From Pseudalkalibacillus berkeleyi (GTDB lineage: Bacteria; Bacillota; Bacilli; Bacillales; Fictibacillaceae): 64,000 nucleotides of DNA. The translations under genes were made by a program, and so were the position numbers. How positions within the stretch are numbered: the stretch's first letter is position 1; each line of letters starts with the position of its first letter. The stretch spans positions 1,736,001-1,800,000 of the forward strand of contig NZ_JAKIJS010000001.1 of assembly GCF_021608225.1 (NCBI RefSeq). The letters run 5' to 3'. A model generated the notes under the pieces. The model made no database searches. It was not told the origin of the DNA and saw only the letters and a list, made by a program, of their open reading frames with translations. Of the stretch, positions 7,465-24,334 are shown in pieces.

Positions 7465-10400
7465 TTAACTTACTGGGACTAATTTATAGCATTTCATATC
7501 GACTAAAAGTATTTTTGTTTCATTTGATCTATTTTTGTAAGAGAAGGTAGCACAACATGTTTTCTCATCTTCACAAAGTAAAGTGAAGATCGTTGCTTTT
7601 GTACCTCCATTGATTGATATTGGTTCACCTGTTTTACAATCGATTAATATATATTGATTTGGTCCCACAGGCGTTGGTCCATTTCCATCTAGAGCATAAT
7701 CCCTTGTTAATGTTTCACCTTGATTTAAGAAAATCGGATCCACAACCGTTTCATATCCTGTTGCAGAAACGAGAACCGTATACTCACCTTCAGCCAACCC
7801 AGTGATGGAGTAACGTCCATCCGGATTAGTTGTACCCTCTGCTACTATCTCATTGTTTCTTCTTAGCGCTATCGTTGCACCACTGATTGCATCACCTGAG
7901 TTAGCATCAAATACAGTTCCTTCAAGAGTAGCTGGATCAATGACCCCTAGAACAAAGTTTATTGTTAAGTTGCTGTTTGGTGGTACGTCCACTACTTTTA
8001 CATCTGGCTTAAACCCTGGTAGTGATGCAATGAAGGTTAGAGTCTCCCCAGGTATAGAACCAATTACATATTCACCCTCTCTACTTGTGACGCCAAGGTT
8101 CAAAAGTAATCCGTCTGCATTGTATACCCTCACACTAACGTCATTTAGAGGATTTCCTTTTGTATCGGTTACATTCCCACGGACAGTGGATGGATCACTG
8201 GTCAACAAGAAATTAATGGTTGTCGATTCTCCTGCTATAATCCTTAATTCCTTAGCTTCTGAATCACACCCCAAAGCAAGTGCCCGGATTGAATAGGTTC
8301 CTGGAGCAAGGCTTGTGATCAAATAATTACCTGTTTCATCAGTAAGCGTATTGGCTGTGATCACACCATTTTCATCCGTAACGATGATCGATACACCAGA
8401 GACAAACTTATCTGTTCTTCCGTCTTTCACACGTCCATTTACTGATCCCGTATCTCTAGTTAATGCAAAGTTAACAATTTCAGTTTGAAGAGGTTCCGCT
8501 GTAAAGTTTTTCGCATCAGATTGATACGTTTCACTTTTAACCGTAACAGTATACTCACCTGGATCAAATCCTTGGAACATATACTTTCCAGATGTATCTG
8601 TTTGTGTTCGTTGAAGAATCGTTCCACTTGATGCAATAAGCCTTACGACCACGTTTCTAATCCCTAACCCAGTTACAGCATCTGTCACTTGACCCTTTAC
8701 ACTAGACGGAAGTGGAAATAGCCCGAGGTTTTGTACTGTAGTTTGGTTAGGGAAAATTTGAATCGATGCTTGATCACTCCCCAAACCACCTCCATAAGCT
8801 AAAACCGTATAGATTGCAGGCGTCAATCCTTCGAACAAATATTCACCATTATTGTTCGTTATAGTGGAAGCTAGCAGTTCTCCATCTGGACTTAACCACC
8901 TTAACTGAACGATAGCCCCCGAAACAGCTTCCCCTGTCACTTGGTTGGTTACAATACCGCTCAAACTACCTGTGACAGGTGTTAATTCAAAGTTTAAAGT
9001 GGTTCTTTCATCACTGGTTACAATTGCCCCAGCAATCTTTGTTCCATAATCAGGATGACTGCTTGCCAGTTCATATACACCAGGACCTAAATCCATTACT
9101 AAATAACGACCATCTGCTTGCGAAAGTACAGTTACAAGTGTAGATTCATCTCCTCCAAGTACTTGCACCACGGCATCGGAAATCGGTTCTCCAGTTTCCT
9201 GATCCGTAATTACTCCTTCAATACTTCCAGGATTTGGTGTTAACCGAATAACCCGTTCAACAGTTTCATTCGGTTCAACCATGATGGTTACTGACTTTGT
9301 TCCGAATCCTTCTCTCGAAACCATTACAGATAAGGTTCCCGTTGGAAGGTTGTCGACATTGAAACGACCATCCTCGTTCGAAATACTCGTGGTTAATAAT
9401 TTGTTGGCCGCGTCTTTTATATTGATTGAAGCTCCCGCAATTCCTACCAATGTGTCCATATTAATGACCTGACCAATCAAGTTGCCCGATTCTCGGAAAA
9501 GGGTAATGTCCAATTCCTCCGTACCTCCACCAACAACAGTAACGGGAACTACTTTTGATTGGAATCCTTCAGCACTTATACTGATGAGATATTGACCAGG
9601 ACTCAAACTCAAGAAACTGAACTCGCTTTGTGGCGAAGCGATAGTGGATTGTAAGAGCAATCCCTGCTGGTCAAGTAACCTTACGCCAATTACTAAACCT
9701 TGAAGTCTGTTACCTTCTTCGTCCCTAAGGATACCGAATACTGAACCAGCAGATCTTGATAAAGTGATATTGACATTGGTCAATTCACCAGTTTTAACAA
9801 TTCCTCCTGCTGTTTGTTTGGCATATTCATTTTTCGTGACAGATACCGTATAGCTCCCAGCTGCCAATCGGTCGACAAAATAGTTGCCTAACGTATTCGT
9901 CGCTGTCGTCGCAATTACCAATCCATTCGTATCTAGGATGTTAACATTAGCACCTACTATTGGATCACCTGTCTCCCGATCGGTTACTTTACCGAAAATT
10001 GTTCCAGGGCTTACCCGAAGTACGAAATTTACCACCTTTATTTCATTTGCAACTAAAGTGACCCCTGATGATTGGGATGCAACATCTGGTGCGGCTACAC
10101 GAATTGAATACGTTCCTGGGCGTAGATTTCCAATCGAATAAAATCCTTCTGCGTTCACTGCACTTGTTCCGATTACTACACCATTACTATCAATGATCTT
10201 AATAACCGCATTCTTGAATGGAGTTCCATCAGTTCCCAGGACAGTCCCAGAAACACCTGATGATTCACTTATCAAGGAAAGATTTGTGGTCGTTGTTTGG
10301 TTTGCTAATACCGTACTACCAGTAGAATTTTCAGTGTACCCAACTGCGTTCACTACAATCGTATACGTACCAGGTACAAGTCCTGTAATTGTATACTCTC

Positions 10401-13400
10401 CTAATCCGTCCGTTAACGCCATTGCAATGGGCACAATATCCTGTGCTGAAAATACAAGGACCTCTGCTCCAACGAGTCTTGTTGCCGTTTCGGCGTCCGT
10501 TATCGTTCCGGATATTGAACCAGGATTAGGTTCTAAGCCGAAGTTTACAATCGTCGTTTCATCAGAGACAACCAATACACCAACCTCTTGCGTTTGGAAT
10601 TCAGAATTGCTGGTGACTATTCTGAACTGCAATGGGGCGAGTCCGGTAAATTGATAGAAACCATTTGCATCTGTATTTGTAGAAAACACCAAAATCCCAT
10701 CTACGTTAAAGATTTCTATTAGTATTCCTGATAATGGTGTGCCTGTATTTGAGTTAGAAATTGTACCTTCAATCGTACCTGGATTTGGTACCAATTTAAC
10801 ATCTACTGTCTCCGTTTGATTCGATTCTACAATGGTTGTCGCCTCTGCAGCTCCAAACCGATCGGCTGAAGCTACAATCGTATACGTACCAGGAGCTAAT
10901 GTCGCTACGGTGTATTCACCATTTGAGTCTGTTAATGTTGTCGCAACAATCGGACCACTTGGGGACAGCGAACGGACCGCAATTGTGGCTCCTATAATCG
11001 GGTCACCCGTATTGAAATTCGTAATTCGACCTTGAACGATTCCAGGCTCAGGAGAGAGTGCAAAACTAAGGGTTGTCGTTTCATTTGGTAAAATCGTAAA
11101 GCTCGCCGTCCTAGACGTATAATTATCAGCTGCTACAACCGCTGTGTAATCGCCTGGGCTTAACCCTTGGGTTAGAAACTGTCCAGAACCATCAGAAGTA
11201 ATCGTTGCAATTTGAGCGCCATTTTTATCAATTAGAATGACCGCCCCAGAAATCGCATTCCCTGTGTCTATATCTGAAATAAAACCTGTGAGGAAACCTA
11301 AACTTTCGGTTAATCCAATATTCGCAGTGGTTGTTTCGTTAGGTCCAACAACTGCTGTAACAGCATTTGCTCCAAAATCATCCGCAACGGCACTAATGTT
11401 CACTGTTCCAGGAGGTATGTTATTCGCCTCATACTCACCATTTATACCTGAAATTGTTGTTGTAATTGGAATTCCTTCCGCAGTAGTGAATGTAAGAACG
11501 GCTCCGTTTATACCATCTGAAGTAGATGTGTTAAAAACTCTACCAGTAATCGTGCCCGGAAGTAACGAGAGTGGGATCGTAACCGTTTCTGTTTCATTCG
11601 CGATAACAGTAGCATTTACTGAATTTGCAGCAAAATTGGTAGCCGTAGCATTAATCAAATATTGACCAGGTTGTAGTCCTAGAATTGAGAATGTCCCATC
11701 ATTACTCGCAACAAGTGTTTGGAGAAGCGCTCCACTTTCATCAAATAATTTAATCCCTATATTATCACCGGTTATCGGATCTCCATTTTCATCAACAACT
11801 ATTCCGGCAATATCTCCAATCGTACTCGTCAGAGTGATGTTAGCTACAGAACTAAGGTTACTTACTACCATTACACCTACAAAGTTTGTTGAGAAATCTG
11901 GAGCTGTAGCGACAACTGTATAAGATGCCGGCGCAATTCCTTCAACAAGGTATTCACCGAATTCATTCGTTGTCGTCGATCTGATCTGGAGGTTATCCGC
12001 ATTACGTATGATGATGGTAGCACCTGAAATCGGATCCCCGTCTGTATCGATTATAGTCCCCACAATTGCACCAGGATCAGGTAGGAGGACGAAGTTTGCA
12101 TCCGTAACTGTTTCACCTGGTTCTAGTGTGACACCCCCTGTTGCCGTAGAGAAATCTTGCGCATTAACGACAATGGAAAATGATCCAGGAGGGAGGTTGC
12201 TTAATACATATTGACCATTTTGATCCGTTCCACCCGTATTCAAAATCGTACCATTCATATCTATTATTTGGATTGTCGCGTTCGTCACCGGTATGCCTGA
12301 AGGATCAGTAACAACACCGCTAACTTCCGCTGGATTAGGTTCCATTTCAAGTGTTACAGATGTTGTTTCATCCGATACAACTGAAGCTCCAACGGTTGAA
12401 GTCTGATAATTCGGTGCTGAAGCAGTCAGAATATATTGGCCTGGTTGTAGGTTATTAAATTGGAAATCCCCATTTGTATCTGCAAGCGTTGAAGCAATCG
12501 GAATACCGTCAGATGTACTTAAAGTAACTAAAGTATCATTAACGACTGGCGTGATCGATCCTGAGATTGTACCAGGATTGCTTACCAAGCTTTGATCAAC
12601 GACTGTTGTTTCATTTGATTGAACGATCGCACCTGTAGAACGTGATTGAAACCCTTCAGCGATTGATGTGACCGTATAGTTCCCTGGAGCTAAACCATTG
12701 AACTCGTAATTTCCATTCGTATCTGTCAAAACAGTGCCTACTATGAAGCCAGTATCATCGACAATAGTGATGGAAACATTCGGTAGTGCGTTCCCGCTCG
12801 TATCGGTAATCGTCCCTATAATTGCCCCAGGTTCTGGAGTCAATGTGACATTGACCTCAGTCACTTCGCCGGGTAATAGCTTTGCAGTTGCTGAGTTCGT
12901 TTGAAAATCTGGTGCACTGGCAAGGATTCCATACGTTCCTGGCTCAAGATTGTTCACTTCATACTGACCGTTTAAATCTGTAAATGTCGACGTCACGACA
13001 TTTCCAAATGAATCAACAATTTTGACCTCAATCATTGTGTCAGTTATTGGTAACCCTGTATCAGCATTAATAATTGTTCCTGTGACACTGGCTGGATTTG
13101 CAACTAATGTGAAGTCCGTTATCGTGGTCTGTCCAGATTGGATGATTGCACCTTTTCGTTGACTCTGAAAATCCTCAGCTTGTGCGAGAACTGAATAGTC
13201 TCCAGGAGCTAATCCAAGCGCTGTATAATTCCCTTGATTATTCGTCACAACTTGAATGATATTCGCACCTGTCCTTAGGTCCTTAATTGTGATGACCGCA
13301 CCTTGAATGGGATCGCCTGATGAAGTACTTACTGTACCAGTCAAGATACCTGGGTTAGGGGTTAAAGTGACATTGGCAGTGGTGATTTCATTCGCTAGTA

Positions 13401-15681
13401 CCGATGCGCCAACGGTTTCCGTTCCAAAATTCTCTTTAGAAACACTTACTGTGTAGGCTCCAGGTGTTAGGTTGTTGATCGTATAGCTTCCATTGCCACC
13501 TGTTGAGGTTGATGCGATGAGTATATTATTTGAGAAAATTTCTACCAATGCACCAGATATAGGATTTGAACCTGTGTCTGTTACTGTACCGGAAATCGCA
13601 CCTACAAGTTGATCCAATGCTACATTCAAGGTCGTCGTTTGATTGGGTTCAATTTTTGTGCCAATATTTTTAGATCCATAACCTTCCGCGATGAATGTGA
13701 CAGTATAAGAACCAGGCGCTAATCTTGTGAACGTGTAGTCCCCACTTGCATCTGTTATCGTCGTACCAACCGTGACTCCATTTCCATTCGTTACTTGTAC
13801 TGTTGTATTGGGTAGTGGATCACCTGTCTCAGAATCTGTAACTTTACCAGTTAATGTACCAGGATTAGGTTTCAATTCGACATTAAGTGTTTCTGTCTCT
13901 CCCGCCGATAAATTAAATCCAAGTACTTCTGTCATGAAGAGTTCTTTACTGACTCTCAGTTTATAATCACCTGGAGCAAGATCATCCACGACATACTCCC
14001 CTGAAGCATTTGTTGTCGTTTGGGTGACCACTGAATCTGCAGTATTCAATATTTCTACAAGTGCGCCACTAATGAGCGAACCTTCTGAAGTTACAACACC
14101 TTGAACTGTACCCGGATTTGGCTCTAGGACGAAGTTAACCGTTGAGGCATCATTCGCTTCTACTTTTACACCTTTTGTAGCTGATTGAAAGTTTGTAGCC
14201 GTTACCGTAATAGAATACTGCCCGGGTCTTACAGATGGAAACGAATATGCTCCAGTAGGATCTGTGGTCGTGTCAGCTACAACATTTCCAGCTGTATCAA
14301 CTAATCTTACAGTGGCATTATTAATTGCTCCGCCACCAGAGTTCGTAACTGTACCATTGATACTTCCTGGCAACTCTGTCAAAAAGGCATCTTTCCTAGT
14401 AATTTCACCTGATAAAATCGTAACAGATTGTATATTTGTAATGTAATCTATCTTGGAATATTCGATCGTATAGGTTCCTGGCGCTATGCCAGTAAGACTG
14501 TATTCTCCATTTAAATTGGTTGTTGTCGTCGCTATGGTTGTTGCTCCATCTTTCAACTCAACATTGACATCTGATAGAGGGAATCCAGTTGTATGATCTT
14601 TTACAATCCCAACAACTCCACCGTTAGCAACAACATTCACATTAGTTATTACTGTGTCAGGGCGTAATGCTTTCCCAGTTTCACCGTCCGTTCCATTAAC
14701 AGTGGCAGTTTCTAAAGTTCTTTCACCTGCTGTGTTAAAAAATCCACTCATTTCAAAATCTAAGACAGCAGTTGCACCTGGTGCTAGTTTCCCAATCTCC
14801 CAACTTAGCGTTTTCGTTTGTTGGTTGAATGTTGGGTGACCTATTGAGGAACTTATAATTGAAAATGTGTTGAGAATATCGAATGAAATAACATCCTTCA
14901 GACTTACAGTCGTTGCTTTGCTTTTCCCCGTATTTTCAACGATCAATCGAGCTGTATATTCTGCTTCCGTACCTGCAGAAACGGATGTAGGGCCGCTTAA
15001 GATGATTTTTCTTAAATCGAGTTTCGCTCTAACATCTGTATCATCTGGAGAAATGGGATCTGAAAAAGCATTTGAAAATTGAAATCCTTCACTCGTACGC
15101 AAAGAGTCTTTATTGTAATTATTAGAGTTCGTAGAAGTAAATGAAATCAACTGCAAAGGTGTATCTACATTAATACCCAGAAAGTCGAATAGAACACTAG
15201 CTGGAATGAAGAAGTCTAAAAACACATTATCATTGTTACCAAATCGTGTATTAGCAGGTATCACTCTAGCAATATCGAAATTAATAATCGGTTTTGAATA
15301 ATTGGGAGCACCTCTACCATTGGTACCTTCCGCTGGGTCGTTCCATGAGTTAACCTCTTGAATTGTATTTTCTATTAAATTGAGTCGGCCACTATTTCCG
15401 TCAACCGATAACATCCATTGGTAGGTGCCAGGTGCCCCGCCTGTATTGAATAGAACCCCCCACGCAAAATTTCGGAAGCCCGTTTTTTGGTTGTTCCTTG
15501 GGTCAGCTTGTAATCGTAATCGAAAATAGACATTCGTCCCATCATATGCCATTGAAAAGGATGGATTCGACTGGTTACCTACGAGGTCTACTGATGTAGG
15601 CGATTCATCTCCTGTCACATCGAAATAAAATCCCGATCCTAATGGTATCGATGTATATTCATTATCATTTGGAAAAGTCAC
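7465..15681 (-). CDS. Giant multi-repeat protein A: N-terminal domain, DUF11-like domain, 27 carboxypeptidase-regulatory-like repeats, Cys-rich tail
   Basis: 2738 residues, no signal peptide, membrane segment, LPXTG or SLH motif. Residues ~1-225 form a β-rich domain of unknown family (possibly DOMON/CBM9-like), ~225-350 a DUF11-like domain (GPTSVSAGTEAEYTARLIVE). Then come 27 tandem units of ~85 residues with the pattern G-x-I-x-G-x-V-x-D...TG-P-I-x-G-A...T-d-x-x-G-x-Y...L-x-P-G-x-Y...L-x-P-n-P, i.e. carboxypeptidase regulatory-like β-sandwiches. The last ~65 residues hold five cysteines (DCKTG, LLCEDEKTCC, DMKCY). The start is GTG at 15681, 5 nt after AAAGGAGGAGG. It is the tandem paralogue of the next gene. 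Function is unknown; an extended fibre or adhesin, perhaps on the spore, is inferred. Confidence 0.85.
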   Translation of the reverse strand: MTFPNDNEYTSIPLGSGFYFDVTGDESPTSVDLVGNQSNPSFSMAYDGTNVYFRLRLQADPRNNQKTGFRNFAWGVLFNTGGAPGTYQWMLSVDGNSGRLNLIENTIQEVNSWNDPAEGTNGRGAPNYSKPIINFDIARVIPANTRFGNNDNVFLDFFIPASVLFDFLGINVDTPLQLISFTSTNSNNYNKDSLRTSEGFQFSNAFSDPISPDDTDVRAKLDLRKIILSGPTSVSAGTEAEYTARLIVENTGKSKATTVSLKDVISFDILNTFSIISSSIGHPTFNQQTKTLSWEIGKLAPGATAVLDFEMSGFFNTAGERTLETATVNGTDGETGKALRPDTVITNVNVVANGGVVGIVKDHTTGFPLSDVNVELKDGATTIATTTTNLNGEYSLTGIAPGTYTIEYSKIDYITNIQSVTILSGEITRKDAFLTELPGSINGTVTNSGGGAINNATVRLVDTAGNVVADTTTDPTGAYSFPSVRPGQYSITVTATNFQSATKGVKVEANDASTVNFVLEPNPGTVQGVVTSEGSLISGALVEILNTADSVVTQTTTNASGEYVVDDLAPGDYKLRVSKELFMTEVLGFNLSAGETETLNVELKPNPGTLTGKVTDSETGDPLPNTTVQVTNGNGVTVGTTITDASGDYTFTRLAPGSYTVTFIAEGYGSKNIGTKIEPNQTTTLNVALDQLVGAISGTVTDTGSNPISGALVEIFSNNILIASTSTGGNGSYTINNLTPGAYTVSVSKENFGTETVGASVLANEITTANVTLTPNPGILTGTVSTSSGDPIQGAVITIKDLRTGANIIQVVTNNQGNYTALGLAPGDYSVLAQAEDFQSQRKGAIIQSGQTTITDFTLVANPASVTGTIINADTGLPITDTMIEVKIVDSFGNVVTSTFTDLNGQYEVNNLEPGTYGILASAPDFQTNSATAKLLPGEVTEVNVTLTPEPGAIIGTITDTSGNALPNVSITIVDDTGFIVGTVLTDTNGNYEFNGLAPGNYTVTSIAEGFQSRSTGAIVQSNETTVVDQSLVSNPGTISGSITPVVNDTLVTLSTSDGIPIASTLADTNGDFQFNNLQPGQYILTASAPNYQTSTVGASVVSDETTSVTLEMEPNPAEVSGVVTDPSGIPVTNATIQIIDMNGTILNTGGTDQNGQYVLSNLPPGSFSIVVNAQDFSTATGGVTLEPGETVTDANFVLLPDPGAIVGTIIDTDGDPISGATIIIRNADNLQIRSTTTNEFGEYLVEGIAPASYTVVATAPDFSTNFVGVMVVSNLSSVANITLTSTIGDIAGIVVDENGDPITGDNIGIKLFDESGALLQTLVASNDGTFSILGLQPGQYLINATATNFAANSVNATVIANETETVTIPLSLLPGTITGRVFNTSTSDGINGAVLTFTTAEGIPITTTISGINGEYEANNIPPGTVNISAVADDFGANAVTAVVGPNETTTANIGLTESLGFLTGFISDIDTGNAISGAVILIDKNGAQIATITSDGSGQFLTQGLSPGDYTAVVAADNYTSRTASFTILPNETTTLSFALSPEPGIVQGRITNFNTGDPIIGATIAVRSLSPSGPIVATTLTDSNGEYTVATLAPGTYTIVASADRFGAAEATTIVESNQTETVDVKLVPNPGTIEGTISNSNTGTPLSGILIEIFNVDGILVFSTNTDANGFYQFTGLAPLQFRIVTSNSEFQTQEVGVLVVSDETTIVNFGLEPNPGSISGTITDAETATRLVGAEVLVFSAQDIVPIAMALTDGLGEYTITGLVPGTYTIVVNAVGYTENSTGSTVLANQTTTTNLSLISESSGVSGTVLGTDGTPFKNAVIKIIDSNGVVIGTSAVNAEGFYSIGNLRPGTYSIRVAAPDVASQSSGVTLVANEIKVVNFVLRVSPGTIFGKVTDRETGDPIVGANVNILDTNGLVIATTATNTLGNYFVDRLAAGSYTVSVTKNEYAKQTAGGIVKTGELTNVNITLSRSAGSVFGILRDEEGNRLQGLVIGVRLLDQQGLLLQSTIASPQSEFSFLSLSPGQYLISISAEGFQSKVVPVTVVGGGTEELDITLFRESGNLIGQVINMDTLVGIAGASINIKDAANKLLTTSISNEDGRFNVDNLPTGTLSVMVSREGFGTKSVTIMVEPNETVERVIRLTPNPGSIEGVITDQETGEPISDAVVQVLGGDESTLVTVLSQADGRYLVMDLGPGVYELASSHPDYGTKIAGAIVTSDERTTLNFELTPVTGSLSGIVTNQVTGEAVSGAIVQLRWLSPDGELLASTITNNNGEYLFEGLTPAIYTVLAYGGGLGSDQASIQIFPNQTTVQNLGLFPLPSSVKGQVTDAVTGLGIRNVVVRLIASSGTILQRTQTDTSGKYMFQGFDPGEYTVTVKSETYQSDAKNFTAEPLQTEIVNFALTRDTGSVNGRVKDGRTDKFVSGVSIIVTDENGVITANTLTDETGNYLITSLAPGTYSIRALALGCDSEAKELRIIAGESTTINFLLTSDPSTVRGNVTDTKGNPLNDVSVRVYNADGLLLNLGVTSREGEYVIGSIPGETLTFIASLPGFKPDVKVVDVPPNSNLTINFVLGVIDPATLEGTVFDANSGDAISGATIALRRNNEIVAEGTTNPDGRYSITGLAEGEYTVLVSATGYETVVDPIFLNQGETLTRDYALDGNGPTPVGPNQYILIDCKTGEPISINGGTKATIFTLLCEDEKTCCATFSYKNRSNETKILLVDMKCYKLVPVS

Positions 15682-15707
15682 TTTTCCTCCTCCTTTATAT
15701 TCACTCC

Positions 15708-15780
15708 TTATAGTTGTATGTCCTATTAAGTCGAAGGTGTTGGTTGCAAGTCCTAATCATCTATAAAAATCCATATATGA
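15708..15780 (-). promoter_or_regulatory. Conserved upstream region of giant gene A with 33-bp-phased direct repeat
   Basis: Minus strand reads TCATATATGG (15780-15771), TAGGACTTGCAACCA (15755-15741), then TAGGACATACAACTATAA (15725-15708). The two TAGGAC-T-CAAC units start 33 bp apart. The same blocks with the same spacing stand before giant gene B. A conserved ACC lies 16 bp before CATACAACTA, close to the σK form AC-N16/17-CATA-N3-TA but with one extra base in the -10. Mother-cell expression in late sporulation is inferred. Confidence 0.5.
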
Positions 15781-15900
15781 CCATAAGCGAACAAGCCCTT
15801 TTTGCATTAATAAAGTAGAACGTACAGTAGTCCCGAATCCGTATTTCACTTTGAGAAAGTTAAGTGAGTAGTTAAACAACTTAGTCCATGTATCTGAGGC

Positions 15901-15935
15901 AAAAAAAAAAAACGAAGGGATCACTCCCATCGTTT
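15901..15935 (-). terminator. Terminator of giant gene B
   Basis: Minus strand: AAACGATGGGA, 4-nt loop, TCCCTTCGTTT and a run of 12 T. It lies directly after the stop of giant gene B, so the two giant genes are separate transcription units. Confidence 0.9.
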
Positions 15936-15943
15936 TAAAGAAA

Positions 15944-18900
15944 CTAATTTACTGGCACAAGCCTAAAACATTCTATACAGACTAGAAGAATTCTAATTTC
16001 ACCTCTTCTACTCTTATAGGAGAAGGTGCCACAACCCGTTTTCTCATCTACACAAAGTAATGTGAAAACAGTTGGTTTTGTACTTCCATCTAACATGAGA
16101 GGTTTACCGGTCTTACAATCAAACAATAAATATTGATTGGGTCTTACTGGTGTTGGAGGGGCAGTTTCTTCTAATGCGTAATTCTTTGTCAAAGTTTCTC
16201 CTTGGTCCAAGAAGATCGGATCAACAGCTGTCTCATAACCTTCCGCGGATACTAAAACTGTATACTCCCCTTCTGCTAATTCATTGATGGAATAACGTCC
16301 ATTCGTGTCTGTTAAGCCCTCTGCTACTATTACGTTATTTCTTCTAATCGCAATTGTCGCACCACTAATTCCATCACCTGTAGCTGCATCTGTAACAGTC
16401 CCTTGTAGTGAACCAGGATCACTGACGCCTAGAACAAAATTAATGATAAGATTACTATTCGGTGGTACGTCCACCACTTTTGTCTCTGGCGCAAACCCTG
16501 GTAAAGAAGCAGTAAAGGTCAATGTTTCCCCAGGAAGATAACCAATTACATATTCCCCCTCTCTACTTGTCACTCCCAAGTTCACAAGCAATCCATCAAC
16601 ATTGTATACTCTGATACTGACGTCATTAAGAGGATTTCCTTTTGTATCAGTTACATTCCCTCTGACAGTTGCAGGATCTGGGGTTAATAAGAAGTTAATG
16701 ATCGTTGTCTCTCCTGCAACGATGGTCATTCGCTTTGCATCTGAATCGCAACCTTCAGCTAGCGCTCTTATAGAATAAGTTCCAGGAGCTAGCCCTTTAA
16801 TCAAGTAATTTCCATTTTGATCAGTGAGGGTGTTCGCAATGAGAACTTCATTTTCATCTAACACAATGATGGAGACGCCGGAGACAAACGATTGCGTTGT
16901 TTCATCTTTCACTTTACCTGTAACAGATCCAAATGCACTTTCCAATTCAAAGTTTAGAATTTGTGTCCCGAGCGGTTCTGCTGTAAAGCTTTTGGCAAAG
17001 GATCCGTAATTTTCATTTCTCACAGCCACTGTATAATCCCCTGGGTCAAACCCCTGAATCATATAATTTCCAGAAGAGTCTGTCTCTGTCCGTTGAACAA
17101 TCGTACCACTTGAAGCGATGAGCCTGACAAACGTATGCTGTATTGGCATACCTGTATCGGCATCAGTTATCCGTCCTTTAACAGTGGAAGGTAGAGGAAA
17201 GATGCCAAGATTTTGTACAGTCCTTTGATTTGGACGAACTGTAATAGAAGCAATGTCGCTCCCAAAGCCGCCACCATATGCTACTACCGTATAAATAGCT
17301 GGTGTCAAACCCTCAAATAAATACTCGCCTTTTTCATTCGTCAAAGTCGAAGCAAGTTGCTCTCCATCTGGACTTAACCACCTCAATAGAACGTTAACAC
17401 CTGGTACCCTTTCTCCAGTCACCTGATTCGTTACAACTCCACTTAAACTTCCTGGGTCCAAAGGCAGCCTGAAGTCCAGTGTCGTCTTTTCATCACTTAC
17501 TACGATTGCTCCAGCAATCTTCGTTCCATAATTCTGACGGCTTACAGCTAATTCATACACACCAGGAGTCAAGTTCGTTAGAAGATACTTACCATCAGGT
17601 TGGGTCATGACAGTACTAAACAACGTAACGTCACCATTGAACAGTTGCACATTAGCACTTGAAATCGGCTGACCTGTACCCTCTTCTGTTACCGTACCTT
17701 CAATACTCCCTGGGTTCGGAGTCAGTCGAATAGTCGCTGCTACTGTTTCATTCGATTCAACCATAATACTTACAGACTTTGTTCCGAAACCTACCCTTGA
17801 GGCTGTTATAAATAAAGAACCTATAGGGAGGTTTTCAGCATTGAAGTTTCCATCCTCATTTGAAGTACTAGTCGTTACAAGATTGTTCGCTGAATCTTTC
17901 ACAATGATGGTTGCCCCTGCAATTCCAACTTCTGTGGATTCGTTCAATACTCGACCAATAACTTTTCCTGATTCCCTGAATAGGGTGATATCTAGTTCCT
18001 CTGTCTCTCCTCCAACTAGAGTCACGGGTACAACTTTGGTTTGGAATCCTTCTGCATTTATACTGATCAGGTATTGGCCGGGACTCAAGTTAAGAAAACT
18101 GAAATCACTATTTGGTGAAGCGACTATTGATTGTAAGAGTAGACCCTTGTTGTCAAGTAACCTGATTCCGGTCACTATTGATTCTAGCCTGTTTCCATCC
18201 TTATCCCGTAAAATACCGAATATCGATGCCATAGACTTAGATAAAGTTATATTGACATTTGTCAATTCGCCAGTATTAACGATTGCCCCTTTCGTTTGCT
18301 TAGCATAAGAGCTTTTTGTTACCGAAACTGTATAACTTCCTGCTGCCAATCGGTCGACAAAATAGTTGCCTAACGTATTCGTCGCTGTCGTCGCAATTAC
18401 CAATCCATTCGTATCCAGGATATTGACATTTGCTCCCACGATTGGTTCTCCAGTTGTCTGATCGGTAACTTTCCCAAATATCGTCCCAGGACTTACCCGA
18501 AGAACAAAATTCACTTCTCTCACTTCATTTGCTACTAAACTGATACCTGAAGATTGAGATGCAATATCTGGTGCAGCGACACGTATCGAGTACGTCCCTG
18601 GACTCAACCCACCAATTGAATAAAATCCATTAGCGTTCACTGCACTTGTACCAACAACTACTCCATTACTATCAATGATCTTAATAACCGCATTCTTAAA
18701 TGGTTTTCCGTCAGTACCAAGGACAGTCCCAGAAACGCCAGCAGACTCACTTATCAAGGATAAATTCGTGGTCGTTGTTTCGTTCGCTAATACCGTACTA
18801 CCAGTAGAATTTTCAGTATATCCAACTGCATTCACTACAATCGTATACGTACCAGGTACGAGTCCAGTTATTGTGTACTGTCCTAACCCGTCCGTTAGCG

Positions 18901-21900
18901 CTCTTGCAATGGGTACGATGTCTTGTGCTGAAAATACAAGGACCTCTGCACCAACGAGTCTTGTTGCCGTTTCGGCGTCTGTTATCGTCCCAGATATTGA
19001 ACCAGGATTAGGTTCTAAACCGAAGTTTACAATCGTCGTTTCATCAGAGACAACCAATACACCTACTTCTTCTGTTTGGAATTCTGGATTACTAGTCACA
19101 ACTCTAAATTGCAACGGGGGAAGCCCTGTAAATTGATAGAAACCATTTGCATCTGTATTTGTAGAAAACACCAAAATCCCATCTACGTTAAAGATTTCTA
19201 CTAGTATTCCTGATAATGGTGTGCCTGTATTCGAGTTAGAAATCGTCCCTTCGATTGCTCCTGGGTTAGGCACCAATTTAACATCTACTGTCTCCGTTTG
19301 ATTCGATTCTACAATGGTTGTCGCCTCTGCAGCTCCGAATCGGTTGGCTGATGCAACAATCGTATACGTACCAGGAGCTAATGTTGCTACGTTGTATTCC
19401 CCATTTGCACCCGTTATTGTAGTCGCAACAATTGGACCACTTGGGGACAACGAACGGACCGCAATTGTCGCTCCTATAATTGGATCCCCCGTATTGAAAT
19501 TCGTAATTCGACCTTGAACGATTCCAGGCTCAGGAGAGAGTGCAAAACTAAGGGTTGTCGTTTTATTTGGTAAAATCGTAAAGCTCGCCGTCCGAGACGT
19601 ATAATTATCAGCAGCTACAACCGCTGTGTAATCGCCTGGACTCAACCCTTGGGTTAAAAACTGTCCTGATCCATTAGACGTAATCGTTGCAATTTGAGCG
19701 CCATTTTTATCAATCAGAAGTACCGCCCCAGAAATCGCATTCCCTGTATTAATATCTGTAATATAACCTGTGAGAAAACCTAGACTTTCAGTCAATCCAA
19801 TATTCGCAGTGGTCGTTTCGTTAGGTCCCACAACCGCCGTGACAGCGTTAGCTCCGAAATCTTCTGCAACTGCGCTGATGTTGACAGTACCTGGTGGAAT
19901 GTTATTAGCTGTATAATCACCGTTCATACCGGTAATGGTGGTCGCGATTGGAATTCCTTCCGTGGTCGTGAGCGTAAGAACAGCTCCGCTTATACCATTT
20001 AATGTTGAGGTATTGAATACTCTTCCAGTTATCGTTCCTGGTAATAAGGATAGCGGTATCGTAATCGTTTCTGTTTCATTCGCAATAACAGTGACATACA
20101 CAGAATTAGCAGCATAGTTCGTAGCTCTAGCATTGATCAAATATTGACCAGGTTGTAGACCTAAAACTGAGAAGGTACCATCTACATTCGCAACAAGTGT
20201 TTGCAGAAGTGCACCACTATTATCAAAGATCTTAATGCCTGTATTGTCACCTGTAATCGGGTCACCATTTTCATCTACAACTGTACCCACAATATCTCCT
20301 ATCGTACTCGTCAATATAATGTTAGCTATAGAACTAAGGTTACTACTTACCATTACACCGACAAAATTTGTAGAGAAATCTGGTGCAGTAGCCACTACTG
20401 TATATGACGCTGGTGCAATTCCCTCAACAAGATATTCACCGAATTCATTCGTTGTCGTCGATCTAATTTGAAGGTTATCGGCAGTACGTATGATAATCGT
20501 TGCGCCTGAAATAGGGTCGCCGTCTGTATCGATAATGGTACCAACAATTGACCCAGGATCTGGTAGGAGGACGAAGTTTGCATCCGTAACTGTTTCACCT
20601 GGTTCTAATGTGACTCCTCCAGTTGCAGAAGAAAAGTCTTGTGCATTCACGACAATTGTAAATGAACCTGGAGGGAGATTACTTATCACATATTGCCCAC
20701 TTTGGTCCGATCCACCTGTCTGCAATACTGTTCCATTTTCATCTAAAACTTGAATTGTCGCATTCGTTATTGGTGAACCCGAATTATCAGTTATAAATCC
20801 GCTTACTTCTGCTGGATTTGGAATCATCGTAAGTGTAGCTGATGTTGTTTGATCAGATACAACAGTAGTTCCAACGGTAGAGGTTTGATAGTTTGGTGCT
20901 GAAGCAGTCAATATGAATTGTCCTGGTTGGAGGTTATTAAATTGGAAGTTCCCATTTGTATTTGTCAATGTAGAAGCAATTGGGATGCCATCAGAAGTAC
21001 TTAATGTAATTAAAGTATCCTCAACAACCGGACTGACCGTTCCTGAGATGGAGCCCGGATTACTAACCAAGCTTTGATCAACGACTGTGGTTTCATTGGA
21101 TTGGACAATTGCTCCTGTTGATAATGATTGAAAGCCTGCAGCAATGGATGTGATGGTATAGTTCCCTGGAGCCAGTCCGTTGAATACGTAGTTTCCATTC
21201 GTATCTGTCAAAACAGTGCCTACTATGAAGCCTGTATCATCGACAATGGTGATGGATACATTTGATAGCGGGTTCCCACCTGTGTCAGTAATCGTGCCGA
21301 TTATGGTACCTGGTTCCGGCGTTAAAGTCACATTTACATTTGTTAATTGGCCAGGTAGAAGTTTTACTGATGCGGAGTTCGTTTGGAAATTCGGCGCACT
21401 GGCAAGAATTCCATATATTCCTGGCATGAGGTTATTGACCTCATATTGTCCATTTAAATCTGTAAATGTAGATGTCACAACATTCCCGAATGTATCAACA
21501 ATTTTCACTTCGATCATGAGGTCTGTGATTGGTAATCCTGTAGTTGCGTTTATGATTGTACCTGTGACACTTGCAGGATTTGCAACTAATGTGAAGTCCG
21601 TTATCGTCGTTTGACCGGATTGGATGATTGCTCCTTTTCGTTGACTCTGGAAATCCTCAGCTTGCGCGAAGACAGAATAGTCTCCAGGAGCCAAACCAAG
21701 TGCTGTGTAATCCCCTTGATTATTCGTCACGACTTGAGTGATATTCGCACCTGTCCTTAGATCTTTAATTGTGATGACCGCACCTTGAATGGGATCGCCT
21801 GATGAAGTACTTACTGTACCAGTCAAGATACCTGGATTAGGGGTTAAAGTGACATTTGCAGTGGTGATTTCGTTCGCTAATACCGATGCGCCAACGGTTT

Positions 21901-24163
21901 CCGTTCCAAAATTCTCTTTAGAAACACTTACTGTATAGGCTCCAGGTGTGAGGTTATTGATAATATAGCTTCCATTGCCATCTGTTGAGGTTGATGCGAT
22001 GAGTATATGATTTGAGAAAATCTCTACCAAGGCACCAGATATAGGATTGGTACCTGTGTCGGTAACTGTACCAGAAACCGCTCCAACGAGTTGCTTCATT
22101 TCAACATTCAATGTAGTTGTTTGATTGGATTGTATTTTAGCACCTATAGATTGTGAACCATAACCTATCGCAATAAATGTAACAGTATAGGAACCAGGCG
22201 CTAATCTTGTGAGTGTATAGTCTCCGTTTATGTCTGTCATTGTTGTACCAACTGTGACTCCAGTTCCATTCGTTACTTGTACTGTTGTATTGGATAGTGG
22301 ATCACCTGTCTCAGAATCTGTAACTTTACCAGTCAGTGTTCCAGGATTAGGTTTCAATTCTACATTAAGTGTTTCTGTCTCTCCAGCTGATAAATTAAAT
22401 CCAAGTACTTCTGTCATGAAGAGTTCTTTACTGACTCTCAGTTTATAATCACCTGGAGCTAGATCATCCACGACATATTCTCCTGAAGCATTTGTTGTCG
22501 TTTGGGTGACCACTGAATCTGCAGTATTCAATATTTCTACAAGAGCGCCACTAATGAGCGAACCTTCTGAAGTAACTACACCTTGCACTGTACCGGGATT
22601 TGGTTCTAATACGAAATTAACAATAGATGTATTATTCGCGGTAACTTTAACGCCTTTAGTTGCAGATTGGAAGTTAGTTGCAGTCACTTGGATTGAATAC
22701 TGTCCTGCACTTATAGAAGGAAAAGAGTATGAACCCGCAATGTTGGTAGTTGTATCATCAACAATATTTCCAGAGGTGTCTACTAACAGGACAGTTGCAT
22801 TATTAATTGCTCCGCCACCAGAGTTCGTAACGGTACCATTTATACTTCCTGTTAGTTCAGTTAGGAAAACATCTTTTCGCGTGATGACCCCAGAGGTGAT
22901 TGAAACACTCTGAATGTTGGTAAGATAATTCACTTTTGAATATTCAATCGTATAGGACCCAGGTGGTATACCTGTAAGGGTGTATTTACCATTTGTATTT
23001 GTAGTAGTTGTCGCAATCGTCGTTGCACCATCTTTCAATTCAACAACGACTCCTGAAAGCGGGAACCCAGTCGATTGATCGTTCACGATCCCTACGACTC
23101 CACCATTTGCAACAACATTAATCTTGGTAGTTATAGAATCTGGACGTAAAGCTTTCCCAGTTTCACCGTCCGTTCCATTAACAGTGGCAGTTTCTAAAGT
23201 TCTTTCACCTGCTGTGTTAAAAAAACCACTCATTTCAAAATCTAAGACAGCGGTTGCACCTGGTGCTAGTTTCCCAATCTCCCAACTAAGCGTTTTCGTT
23301 TGATGATTGAAAGTTGGATGTCCCGTTGAAGTATTTGTGATAGAAAAAGTATTGAGTATATCAAACTGTATAACATCCTTTAAACTTACAGTCGTTGCAT
23401 TGCTTCTTCCCTTATTTTCAACGATTAATCGTGCTGTATATTCTGCTTCAGTACCAGCCGATACAGATGTAGGTCCACTTAATAAGACTTTTCTTAAATC
23501 CAATTTCGCCCTTACATCAGTATCTTCAATGGAAATCGGATCAGAAAACGCATCCTCGAACTGAAAGCCTTCACTTACACGCAAGGAGTCTCTATTATAT
23601 CTGTTAGAGTTCGTAGCCGTAAACGACACTAATTGCAATGGTGTTTCTTCTGTAATGTTCAAGAAGTCGAATAAAATTTTGGCGGGAATGAAGAAGTCTA
23701 GAAATACATTATCATCGTTCCCAAATCTTGTATTTGTGGGAGTCACTCTCGCAACATCGAAATTGATGATTGGTGTTGAGTAATTCGGTGCCCCTCTTCC
23801 GTTCGTTCCTTCAGCTCGGTCATTCCATGAGTTCACCTTTTCAATCGTGTTTTGAATAAGGTTCACCTGTTCTTTTCTTCCATCCACATTAAGCATCCAT
23901 TGGTAAGTACCTGCTTGACCGCCTGTATTAAAAAGAACTCCCCATGCATTATTCCTGAAACCTGTTTTTTGTCTATTTCTAGGATCTTCTCGCAATCGTA
24001 ATCGGAAATATACATTCGTTCCATCATAGGCCATTAAAAACGACGGATTCGACTGATCTCCAACTAAGTCCACCCTTTTGGGGGATATATCACCTGTAAC
24101 ATCAAAATAGAACCCCGCACCTAATGGTATCGAGGTATATTGAACATCATTTGGAAAAGTCAA
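15944..24163 (-). CDS. Giant multi-repeat protein B, paralogue of protein A
   Basis: 2739 residues with the same layout as protein A: N-terminal β-rich domain, DUF11-like domain, 27 carboxypeptidase-regulatory-like repeats in the same order, and a five-Cys tail (DCKTG, LLCVDEKTGC, VCIECF). The start is taken as TTG at 24163: AAAGGAGGAGG lies just before it and LTFPND aligns with MTFPND of protein A. A frame extended to a GTG at 24187 would put the ribosome site inside the gene. Identity with A is uneven: repeat 3 is identical at protein level, the last repeats differ clearly. No export signal is seen. Function is unknown. Confidence 0.85.
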   Translation of the reverse strand: MTFPNDVQYTSIPLGAGFYFDVTGDISPKRVDLVGDQSNPSFLMAYDGTNVYFRLRLREDPRNRQKTGFRNNAWGVLFNTGGQAGTYQWMLNVDGRKEQVNLIQNTIEKVNSWNDRAEGTNGRGAPNYSTPIINFDVARVTPTNTRFGNDDNVFLDFFIPAKILFDFLNITEETPLQLVSFTATNSNRYNRDSLRVSEGFQFEDAFSDPISIEDTDVRAKLDLRKVLLSGPTSVSAGTEAEYTARLIVENKGRSNATTVSLKDVIQFDILNTFSITNTSTGHPTFNHQTKTLSWEIGKLAPGATAVLDFEMSGFFNTAGERTLETATVNGTDGETGKALRPDSITTKINVVANGGVVGIVNDQSTGFPLSGVVVELKDGATTIATTTTNTNGKYTLTGIPPGSYTIEYSKVNYLTNIQSVSITSGVITRKDVFLTELTGSINGTVTNSGGGAINNATVLLVDTSGNIVDDTTTNIAGSYSFPSISAGQYSIQVTATNFQSATKGVKVTANNTSIVNFVLEPNPGTVQGVVTSEGSLISGALVEILNTADSVVTQTTTNASGEYVVDDLAPGDYKLRVSKELFMTEVLGFNLSAGETETLNVELKPNPGTLTGKVTDSETGDPLSNTTVQVTNGTGVTVGTTMTDINGDYTLTRLAPGSYTVTFIAIGYGSQSIGAKIQSNQTTTLNVEMKQLVGAVSGTVTDTGTNPISGALVEIFSNHILIASTSTDGNGSYIINNLTPGAYTVSVSKENFGTETVGASVLANEITTANVTLTPNPGILTGTVSTSSGDPIQGAVITIKDLRTGANITQVVTNNQGDYTALGLAPGDYSVFAQAEDFQSQRKGAIIQSGQTTITDFTLVANPASVTGTIINATTGLPITDLMIEVKIVDTFGNVVTSTFTDLNGQYEVNNLMPGIYGILASAPNFQTNSASVKLLPGQLTNVNVTLTPEPGTIIGTITDTGGNPLSNVSITIVDDTGFIVGTVLTDTNGNYVFNGLAPGNYTITSIAAGFQSLSTGAIVQSNETTVVDQSLVSNPGSISGTVSPVVEDTLITLSTSDGIPIASTLTNTNGNFQFNNLQPGQFILTASAPNYQTSTVGTTVVSDQTTSATLTMIPNPAEVSGFITDNSGSPITNATIQVLDENGTVLQTGGSDQSGQYVISNLPPGSFTIVVNAQDFSSATGGVTLEPGETVTDANFVLLPDPGSIVGTIIDTDGDPISGATIIIRTADNLQIRSTTTNEFGEYLVEGIAPASYTVVATAPDFSTNFVGVMVSSNLSSIANIILTSTIGDIVGTVVDENGDPITGDNTGIKIFDNSGALLQTLVANVDGTFSVLGLQPGQYLINARATNYAANSVYVTVIANETETITIPLSLLPGTITGRVFNTSTLNGISGAVLTLTTTEGIPIATTITGMNGDYTANNIPPGTVNISAVAEDFGANAVTAVVGPNETTTANIGLTESLGFLTGYITDINTGNAISGAVLLIDKNGAQIATITSNGSGQFLTQGLSPGDYTAVVAADNYTSRTASFTILPNKTTTLSFALSPEPGIVQGRITNFNTGDPIIGATIAVRSLSPSGPIVATTITGANGEYNVATLAPGTYTIVASANRFGAAEATTIVESNQTETVDVKLVPNPGAIEGTISNSNTGTPLSGILVEIFNVDGILVFSTNTDANGFYQFTGLPPLQFRVVTSNPEFQTEEVGVLVVSDETTIVNFGLEPNPGSISGTITDAETATRLVGAEVLVFSAQDIVPIARALTDGLGQYTITGLVPGTYTIVVNAVGYTENSTGSTVLANETTTTNLSLISESAGVSGTVLGTDGKPFKNAVIKIIDSNGVVVGTSAVNANGFYSIGGLSPGTYSIRVAAPDIASQSSGISLVANEVREVNFVLRVSPGTIFGKVTDQTTGEPIVGANVNILDTNGLVIATTATNTLGNYFVDRLAAGSYTVSVTKSSYAKQTKGAIVNTGELTNVNITLSKSMASIFGILRDKDGNRLESIVTGIRLLDNKGLLLQSIVASPNSDFSFLNLSPGQYLISINAEGFQTKVVPVTLVGGETEELDITLFRESGKVIGRVLNESTEVGIAGATIIVKDSANNLVTTSTSNEDGNFNAENLPIGSLFITASRVGFGTKSVSIMVESNETVAATIRLTPNPGSIEGTVTEEGTGQPISSANVQLFNGDVTLFSTVMTQPDGKYLLTNLTPGVYELAVSRQNYGTKIAGAIVVSDEKTTLDFRLPLDPGSLSGVVTNQVTGERVPGVNVLLRWLSPDGEQLASTLTNEKGEYLFEGLTPAIYTVVAYGGGFGSDIASITVRPNQRTVQNLGIFPLPSTVKGRITDADTGMPIQHTFVRLIASSGTIVQRTETDSSGNYMIQGFDPGDYTVAVRNENYGSFAKSFTAEPLGTQILNFELESAFGSVTGKVKDETTQSFVSGVSIIVLDENEVLIANTLTDQNGNYLIKGLAPGTYSIRALAEGCDSDAKRMTIVAGETTIINFLLTPDPATVRGNVTDTKGNPLNDVSIRVYNVDGLLVNLGVTSREGEYVIGYLPGETLTFTASLPGFAPETKVVDVPPNSNLIINFVLGVSDPGSLQGTVTDAATGDGISGATIAIRRNNVIVAEGLTDTNGRYSINELAEGEYTVLVSAEGYETAVDPIFLDQGETLTKNYALEETAPPTPVRPNQYLLFDCKTGKPLMLDGSTKPTVFTLLCVDEKTGCGTFSYKSRRGEIRILLVCIECFRLVPVN

Positions 24164-24190
24164 ACTTTCCTCCTCCTTTATAGTCACTAC

Positions 24191-24263
24191 TTATAGTTGT
24201 ATGTCCTACAGTAATAGAGGTGTTAGTTGCATGTCCTAACTATTCAATAAATTCCATATATGA
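24191..24263 (-). promoter_or_regulatory. Conserved upstream region of giant gene B
   Basis: Same elements as before gene A: TCATATATGG (24263-24254), TAGGACATGCAACTA (24238-24224) and TAGGACATACAACTATAA (24208-24191), with 33 bp between the repeat starts. The ACC to CATACAACTA distance is again 16 bp. Flanking bases have diverged while these blocks have not, suggesting function. The σK reading is inference. Confidence 0.5.
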
Positions 24264-24287
24264 CTATAAAGGTACAAGCCTGTTTAC

Positions 24288-24322
24288 AAAAAAAAGAACC
24301 ACGGGATGAATACCCGTGGTTC
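24288..24322 (-). terminator. Terminator of sodA
   Basis: Arms GAACCACGGG/CCCGTGGTTC with a 7-nt loop, followed on the minus strand by a run of T. It ends 12 bp after the sodA stop. Confidence 0.92.
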
Positions 24323-24334
24323 CTTAAAATAAAA

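Follow-up and report, generated by a model that had tools for sequence, protein, structure and literature searches.

Two adjacent genes, A and B, in a 64,000-nucleotide window of the Pseudalkalibacillus berkeleyi genome (contig NZ_JAKIJS010000001.1, positions 1,736,001 to 1,800,000 of the forward strand) were found to encode giant repeat proteins that probably form long fibres of fixed length projecting from the surface of the dormant spore. In the reading that we favour, and hold to be fairly probable, both proteins are fibrillar adhesins of the spore surface made in the mother cell, with a carbohydrate-binding-module-like head at the N-terminus, a stalk of fixed length and a coat-type anchor at the C-terminus. 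That they belong to the spore, as the original prediction of a spore-surface fibre or appendage had proposed, is well supported by several independent lines of sequence evidence: 66 of 67 homologous loci lie in sporulating genera, sigma-K-like elements precede the genes, a spore-coat domain (BMQ_0737) is fused to or encoded beside relatives, the C-terminal tail resembles CotY/CotZ/ExsY and no Sec (general secretion) signal was seen in the close family. An anchor at the C-terminus with the head at the tip is likelier than the reverse orientation, and the ligand of the head and the length of the fibre are inferred.

The genes occupy positions 7465 to 24163 of the window, as originally delimited, with B beginning at a TTG codon at 24163. 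This codon is the likelier start within an open frame of 15944-24187 (minus strand) and yields a product of 2739 residues that matches database entry P0001. The two proteins are 83% identical and both are acidic (isoelectric points of 4.15 for A and 4.33 for B). Their features are as follows:

7465 to 15681, minus strand: gene A, giant repeat protein of 2738 residues, GTG start, about 285 kDa
7468 to 7665, minus strand: C-terminal Cys-bearing tail of A, proposed coat anchor, with remote CotY/CotZ/ExsY resemblance
7666 to 14616, minus strand: stalk of A, 27 CarboxypepD_reg repeats and a short linker, the first repeat at residue 356, spacing 81-88
14617 to 15033, minus strand: DUF11-like / Ig-like domain of A, residues about 217-355, from alignment with B
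15034 to 15681, minus strand: N-terminal domain of A, residues about 1-216, predicted carbohydrate-binding-module-like beta-sandwich, from alignment with the modelled domain of B
15682 to 15802, minus strand: upstream region of A, with ACACC-N15-CATACAACTATAAG and a ribosome-binding site
15944 to 24163, minus strand: gene B, giant repeat protein of 2739 residues, TTG start, about 287 kDa
15947 to 16144, minus strand: C-terminal Cys-bearing tail of B, proposed coat anchor
16145 to 23098, minus strand: stalk of B, 27 CarboxypepD_reg repeats and a short linker, in one-to-one order with A
23099 to 23515, minus strand: DUF11-like / Ig-like domain of B, residues about 217-355, from a structure model that ends at residue 350
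24164 to 24280, minus strand: upstream region of B, with ACACC-N15-CATACAACTATAAG and a ribosome-binding site

Lines of evidence for a spore location

A search for homologues and their taxonomic limits, proposed in the original prediction, was carried out in two ways. Residues 1-350 of B retrieved 68 proteins, of which 66 matched at least 95% of the query and two matched 29-35%; where the source names an organism, the 66 near-full-length matches come from Bacillales or Dethiobacter. A pattern-based scan of 84,980 genomes identified 67 loci, 66 of them in Bacillales genera (Fictibacillus, Alkalihalobacillus, Rossellomorea, Metabacillus, Halobacillus, Priestia, Brevibacillus, Marininema, Paenibacillus, Cohnella, Scopulibacillus and kin), which are genera that form spores. 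The 67th locus is a Bacillus-type giant gene on a 6.9-kb contig (L040; GC content 0.364) labelled as a cyanobacterial (Moorena) metagenome-assembled genome, and this contig is probably contamination. In a class-wide sample of 398 genomes, the N-terminal domain was matched in 18 and the sporulation protein SpoIVA in 268. All 16 strong matches (> 300 bits) were in genomes with SpoIVA, as was one of the two weak matches; this co-occurrence is weak when taken alone, because 12 of the 16 strong matches belong to one genus. The genome of the window has SpoIVA.

The upstream regions of 70 giant-gene starts were compared with those of 250 genes taken from the same loci as controls, and they are enriched in -10 elements of the sigma-K type, not in sigma-A promoters. 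The sigma-K consensus is quoted in PMC5749712. The motif CATANNNTA was present in 19 of 70 upstream regions (8/250 controls), CATA in 57 (91/250) and AC-N15..17-CATA in 19 (15/250), with the full AC-N15..17-CATANNNTA in four (3/250). Patterns of the sigma-A type (12/250 controls) and of sigma-E (4/250) occurred in none of the 70. To reduce redundancy, rates were averaged over 26 groups and compared with 300 dinucleotide shuffles, giving 0.287 against 0.065 for CATANNNTA, 0.746 against 0.498 for CATA and 0.262 against 0.081 for AC-N15..17-CATA; none of the 300 shuffles reached the observed rate of any of the three. A stricter motif combination was reached by 14 of 300 shuffles, and sigma-A fell below expectation in the same 26-group average. 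In A and B themselves, ACACC-N15-CATACAACTATAAG fits the -35 AC and CATA with the final TA not at its exact place, and the element upstream of A scores as AC-N15..17-CATA with no exact fit to CATANNNTA. A sigma-70 scan of the region was uninformative (44 sites, 44.4 expected).

The original prediction had also noted the lack of a signal peptide, anchor or sorting motif, and this held on inspection of hydrophobicity and of the C-termini. No strongly hydrophobic 19-residue stretch was found in either protein (highest mean 1.65 in A and 1.55 in B), and no LPxTG-type motif was present in the last 60 residues of any of the 64 family members checked, which include A, B and C (a third paralogue, described below). 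The Pfam families shown for A (25 of 31) and B (25 of 27) did not include SLH. Sec signals in the close family were sought by eye and through the hydrophobicity of 10-residue windows in the first 45 residues. None was seen, with most database homologues starting directly with the head as judged by eye, and a [FYIV]P motif lies within a few residues of the start in 56 of the 64 proteins longer than 1300 residues. At least three homologues (P0011, P0017, P0018) have extra residues before the head, including a hydrophobic stretch in P0011, probably reflecting starts called too far upstream. The highest window mean had a median of 1.22 and a maximum of 1.95 in the giant family, against 1.99-3.01 in four Sec-signal controls, so that the two ranges nearly touch. 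Synthesis may take place late in sporulation within the mother cell, as the upstream elements and the absent Sec signals suggest; an export signal would not be needed because A and B would be made in that compartment. Any placement at the surface would then depend on assembly into the coat.

In these searches the homologues were not mainly from non-sporulating bacteria with clear Sec signals. Sec-like signals were found in three distant relatives of the N-terminal domain, which carry C-terminal LPKTG or SLH anchors and one of which sits in a genome without a SpoIVA match. A protein of the window's own genus (L100:2131-10434) combines a Sec-like signal with a divergent N-terminal domain, a cadherin/Ig-like stalk and LPKTG, and may represent the vegetative equivalent of the proteins made for the spore.

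The Cys-rich tail of the original description was recovered, since five of the six Cys residues in each of A and B lie within the last 57 residues. No Pfam family was assigned to any of seven tails of the window type, that of B included, the cut-off of PF10612 not being reached; the tails of A, B and C gave no match to BMQ_0737 (NF052457), and no convincing PDB sequence match was obtained for the tail. Profile comparison with hhalign showed the tail to be collinear with the C-terminal half of CotY/CotZ/ExsY (PF10612), including Cys residues and an ITVDLxCF segment. The probability was 84% with 15 sequences, and with 104 sequences it was 83.6% trimmed, 91.4% untrimmed and 34.8% in global mode. 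The 104-sequence alignment scored 33.5, with a best of 20.0 among 150 column shuffles (0/150 reaching it). Weighing against this relationship, a shallow tail profile with trimmed columns and without the intermediate L095 gave a probability of only 19%; its score of 23.7 compares with a best of 19.2 among 200 column shuffles and 23.4 among 200 Cys-preserving shuffles. On balance, the window tail is probably a remote relative of CotY/CotZ/ExsY that differs in missing the Cys-rich N-terminal half and in lying below Pfam detection. A sequence search of the PDB with ExsY was equally unconvincing, which left no solved CotZ-type structure to set beside the tail. A partner layer of the CotZ type was sought in the window's own genome and none was found, PF10612 being found in none of the 34 genomes of its family.

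Some homologues from other genera show a second link to the spore coat. The next same-strand gene after the giant gene encodes a Cys-rich protein at two Metabacillus loci and in Thalassobacillus and Sediminibacillus, and the three of these four that were tested belong to the BMQ_0737 morphogenetic spore coat family (NCBIfam NF052457; E 8e-55, 1.1e-55 and 7.6e-59). Of 14 relatives from Rossellomorea, Halobacillus, Priestia and kin that were tested because their ends are Cys-rich, 13 have this domain as the C-terminal part of the giant protein (E 6.5e-13 to 5.8e-24), with a single fusion scoring above the curated cut-off of 71 bits. Four of the positives came from one test and nine from another with ten proteins, and the sole negative, L047, was negative in both. 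A home-made BMQ_0737 model built from four sequences picked up the fused domains poorly and scored L047 as positive, unlike NCBIfam, and the NCBIfam model was used. According to PMC4656864, BMQ_0737 belongs to the outermost spore proteins of B. megaterium. The window tails differ in having no match to the family, and the window genome encodes a homologue separately (G000:C1:770639-771313, L104, within a 408-residue frame), which is a candidate partner for tail binding. As homology and fusion suggest, the C-terminal Cys domain may tie the chain into the outermost coat or the exosporium, the anchor module being a CotY/CotZ/ExsY-like domain in the lineage of the window and a BMQ_0737-like domain or partner protein elsewhere.

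Head, stalk and orientation of the proposed fibre

The N-terminal domain was originally described as unique, which stands for its sequence: neither Pfam nor NCBIfam has a family for it, and sequence searches of the PDB gave no convincing match. It does not stand for the predicted fold. Structure prediction, which had been suggested for this region, returned a beta-sandwich resembling carbohydrate-binding modules followed by an Ig-like domain. Because a PDB search with the whole N-terminal model of B was dominated by the Ig-like domain, the N-terminal domain was folded alone, and the likeness of this model to carbohydrate-binding modules has a middling Z that alone shows no function. The domain differs from beta-sandwich domains of the CBM9, CBM74-region and DOMON-like kinds in having no sequence family match. 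Its predicted fold makes it a candidate adhesive region at the protein terminus, which from the far tip of the fibre may fix spores to one another or to surfaces made of polysaccharide. In the AF2 model the first residues lie inside the fold with high confidence.

The label DUF11-like was given to the following domain in the original prediction. DUF11 is absent from the Pfam families shown for A (25/31) and B (25/27); some homologues, such as P0010, P0012 and P0023, carry that label, and an Ig-like fold is predicted at that place in B, resembling integrin, AP2-mu and CLIPPER domains. Within this domain (residues about 217-355), the LETAT segment of A and B corresponds to LNVAT in C, a difference that might permit C alone to form a Lys-Asn isopeptide bond.

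The count of 27 carboxypeptidase-regulatory-like repeats was confirmed for each protein both by Pfam (27 PF13620 stretches) and by a model built from A's own repeats. Starting at residue 356, the repeats are spaced by 81-88 residues in A and 80-88 in B (about 86). With a single repeat domain measuring 3.5-4 nm, the 27 transthyretin-like repeats would form a stalk of about 100 nm if extended. A stalk of repeated domains, here with a putative rod shape, is among the features of fibrillar adhesin-like proteins (PMC8286594).

Repeat number was compared across 70 proteins (the 67 loci with A, B and C), of which 64 exceed 1300 residues and 58 of those are complete. It was 18 in 20 of 21 Paenibacillus/Cohnella/Marininema proteins (17 in the other), 21 in all four from Brevibacillus and 23 in all 15 from Rossellomorea/Metabacillus/Thalassobacillus/Sediminibacillus and kin. 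In the Fictibacillus/Pseudalkalibacillus/Guptibacillus group it was 27 in all eight short proteins and 35 in five of six long ones (36 in the sixth), with 35 also in one Halobacillus protein; the three remaining proteins have 20, 26 and 30. Repeats were also matched one by one in 18 protein pairs. Within lineages the order is one-to-one (27/27 for A-L005, 35/35 for C-L013, 23/23 for L019-L027 and 18/18 for L048-L064), and the match drops with distance, to 19/27 for A with L008 and with L012, although these also have 27 repeats, and to 10/27 (A-C), 11/27 (A-L019), 8/18 (L048-L033) and 6/21 (L033-L019) in distant pairs. Because repeat number is constant here while copy number often varies in tandem-repeat adhesins, the constancy points to selection on stalk length. 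Two genomes of the same order (G235:C1:440304 and G216:C1:318035) hold a 6778-residue open frame with the same N-terminal domain, more than twice the length of the window proteins.

A spore-surface fibre of the opposite orientation, with the N-terminal domain docked in the coat and lineage-specific C-terminal domains exposed as tips, appears unlikely. BclA docks through its N-terminus, the C-terminal modules of the giant proteins differ between lineages as exposed tips might, and most Paenibacillus-type members have no Cys-rich C-terminal domain. The variable C-terminal modules themselves, however, resemble spore-coat domains and the anchors of the three secreted relatives are C-terminal; moreover, Gram-positive fibrillar adhesins mostly have the adhesive region at the N-terminus and the anchor at the C-terminus, according to PMC8286594. 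It is more doubtful still that the proteins are linkers within the coat or across the coat-exosporium gap instead of outward adhesins. The fixed repeat number would suit a spacer and the terminal Cys and coat-type domains such a position, but the predicted head fold resembles carbohydrate-binding modules and the divergent head is found on proteins with vegetative cell-wall anchors. A vegetative protein with no link to the spore, either cytoplasmic or exported by a Sec-independent route, is very improbable. CarboxypepD_reg repeats are common in extracellular vegetative proteins, but the upstream elements are sigma-K-like and not sigma-A-like, relatives carry coat-domain fusions and the family was found almost wholly among spore formers.

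Genomic setting and paralogues of A and B

The A/B pair is flanked upstream by the superoxide dismutase gene sodA and downstream by genes for a major facilitator superfamily transporter and then a penicillin-binding protein. Two further features are noted:

24293 to 24325, minus strand: terminator-like stem-loop of 13 pairs with a T run, after sodA, setting it apart from gene B
G000:C1:1327.3-1337.6 kb (L004:5334-15626): paralogue C, 3431 residues, 35 repeats

A genome of the same genus shows the same gene order, but with one giant-gene copy at that place. The N-terminal domain is present in 11 of the 34 genomes of the window's family, and on this ground the genes can be regarded as accessory, as was first proposed. 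No gene neighbourhood was found to be conserved across genera; neighbours mostly differ, the exceptions being the downstream BMQ_0737 gene (four loci) and synteny within lineages.

Identity between A and B is 0.86-0.94 over the first two thirds of the stalk, 0.79 in the N-terminal domain and 0.69-0.74 in the last third of the stalk. There, A is as close to a homologue from another species as to B or closer (0.80, 0.74, 0.74), except in the last segment (0.71 with B, 0.57 with the homologue). These values look like an older duplication that may have been partly homogenised by gene conversion, although a whole-length tree places A with B. Paralogue C lies at a different place in the same genome, with a gene for an extracellular thermolysin-like protease about 1.5 kb away.

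Relation to known systems and implications

As described in PMC8286594, Gram-positive fibrillar adhesins are long single chains in which a stalk of rod-like repeats joins a head at one terminus to an anchor at the other, the arrangement proposed here for A and B. A and B differ from them in having no Sec signal, no LPXTG-type motif, spore-coat-like C-terminal modules and a lineage-fixed repeat number. The known cell-surface anchor that is usual, though not obligatory, in fibrillar adhesin-like proteins was not found in A or B, and the main text of PMC8286594 contains no word beginning with spore. MSCRAMM and other sortase-anchored adhesins likewise have the Sec signal and LPXTG that A and B lack, both of which the distant relative in the same genus appears to possess.

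Endospore appendages (ENA) and BclA-type fibres resemble the proposed structures as long fibrous decorations of Bacillales spores. F-ENA are described in PMC11952670 as polymerised from single protein subunits, with collagen-like proteins as their tethers, whereas each chain of A and B, as predicted from the genes, would itself be a fibre of about 27 domains without a collagen repeat. In architecture A and B thus differ from an ENA subunit, which self-polymerises and has a connecting N-terminal peptide. A collagen-type run of six GXY, (GXY)6, as expected of BclA and other collagen-like exosporium proteins, was found in none of A, B and C. The ribbon appendages of Clostridium taeniosporum are alike in that DUF11 sequences and putative sigma-K promoters occur in the spore-appendage gene cluster (PMC5749712, in part); their proteins are small (the largest mentioned has 564 residues) and encoded in a multi-gene cluster, and no CarboxypepD_reg stalk is mentioned in that portion of the paper. 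Among the open-access papers listed by the literature searches none describes the giant family, and a description may exist elsewhere or under another name.

The spore version may be a head-and-stalk adhesin in which spore-coat modules took the place of those for export and anchoring, a reading suggested because the divergent head occurs in secreted, vegetative-type proteins with C-terminal LPXTG or SLH anchors. There is an even chance, in our estimate, that the family is an undescribed class of Bacillales spore-surface fibrillar adhesins. Each chain would then be a fibre of its own, about 70-140 nm long and ending in a carbohydrate-binding-like tip. The Sec signal and wall anchor would have given way to synthesis in the mother cell and to coat anchors that differ by lineage (CotZ-like, or BMQ_0737-like fused or adjacent), and stalk length would be locked at 18, 21, 23, 27 or 35 domains per lineage as a molecular ruler.

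The B. cereus group provides the best-known cases of adhesion by the spore surface. If the reading is true, a new family of giant spore fibres would extend across Fictibacillus, Pseudalkalibacillus, Guptibacillus, Rossellomorea, Metabacillus, Halobacillus, Brevibacillus, Paenibacillus and others, and a testable role would be given to the Cys tail and to an N-terminal domain that belongs to no Pfam or NCBIfam family. It would also mean that the design of a cell-wall adhesin can move to the spore through exchange of its terminal modules, and the proteins would provide a natural protein ruler of fixed length and a scaffold for surface display.
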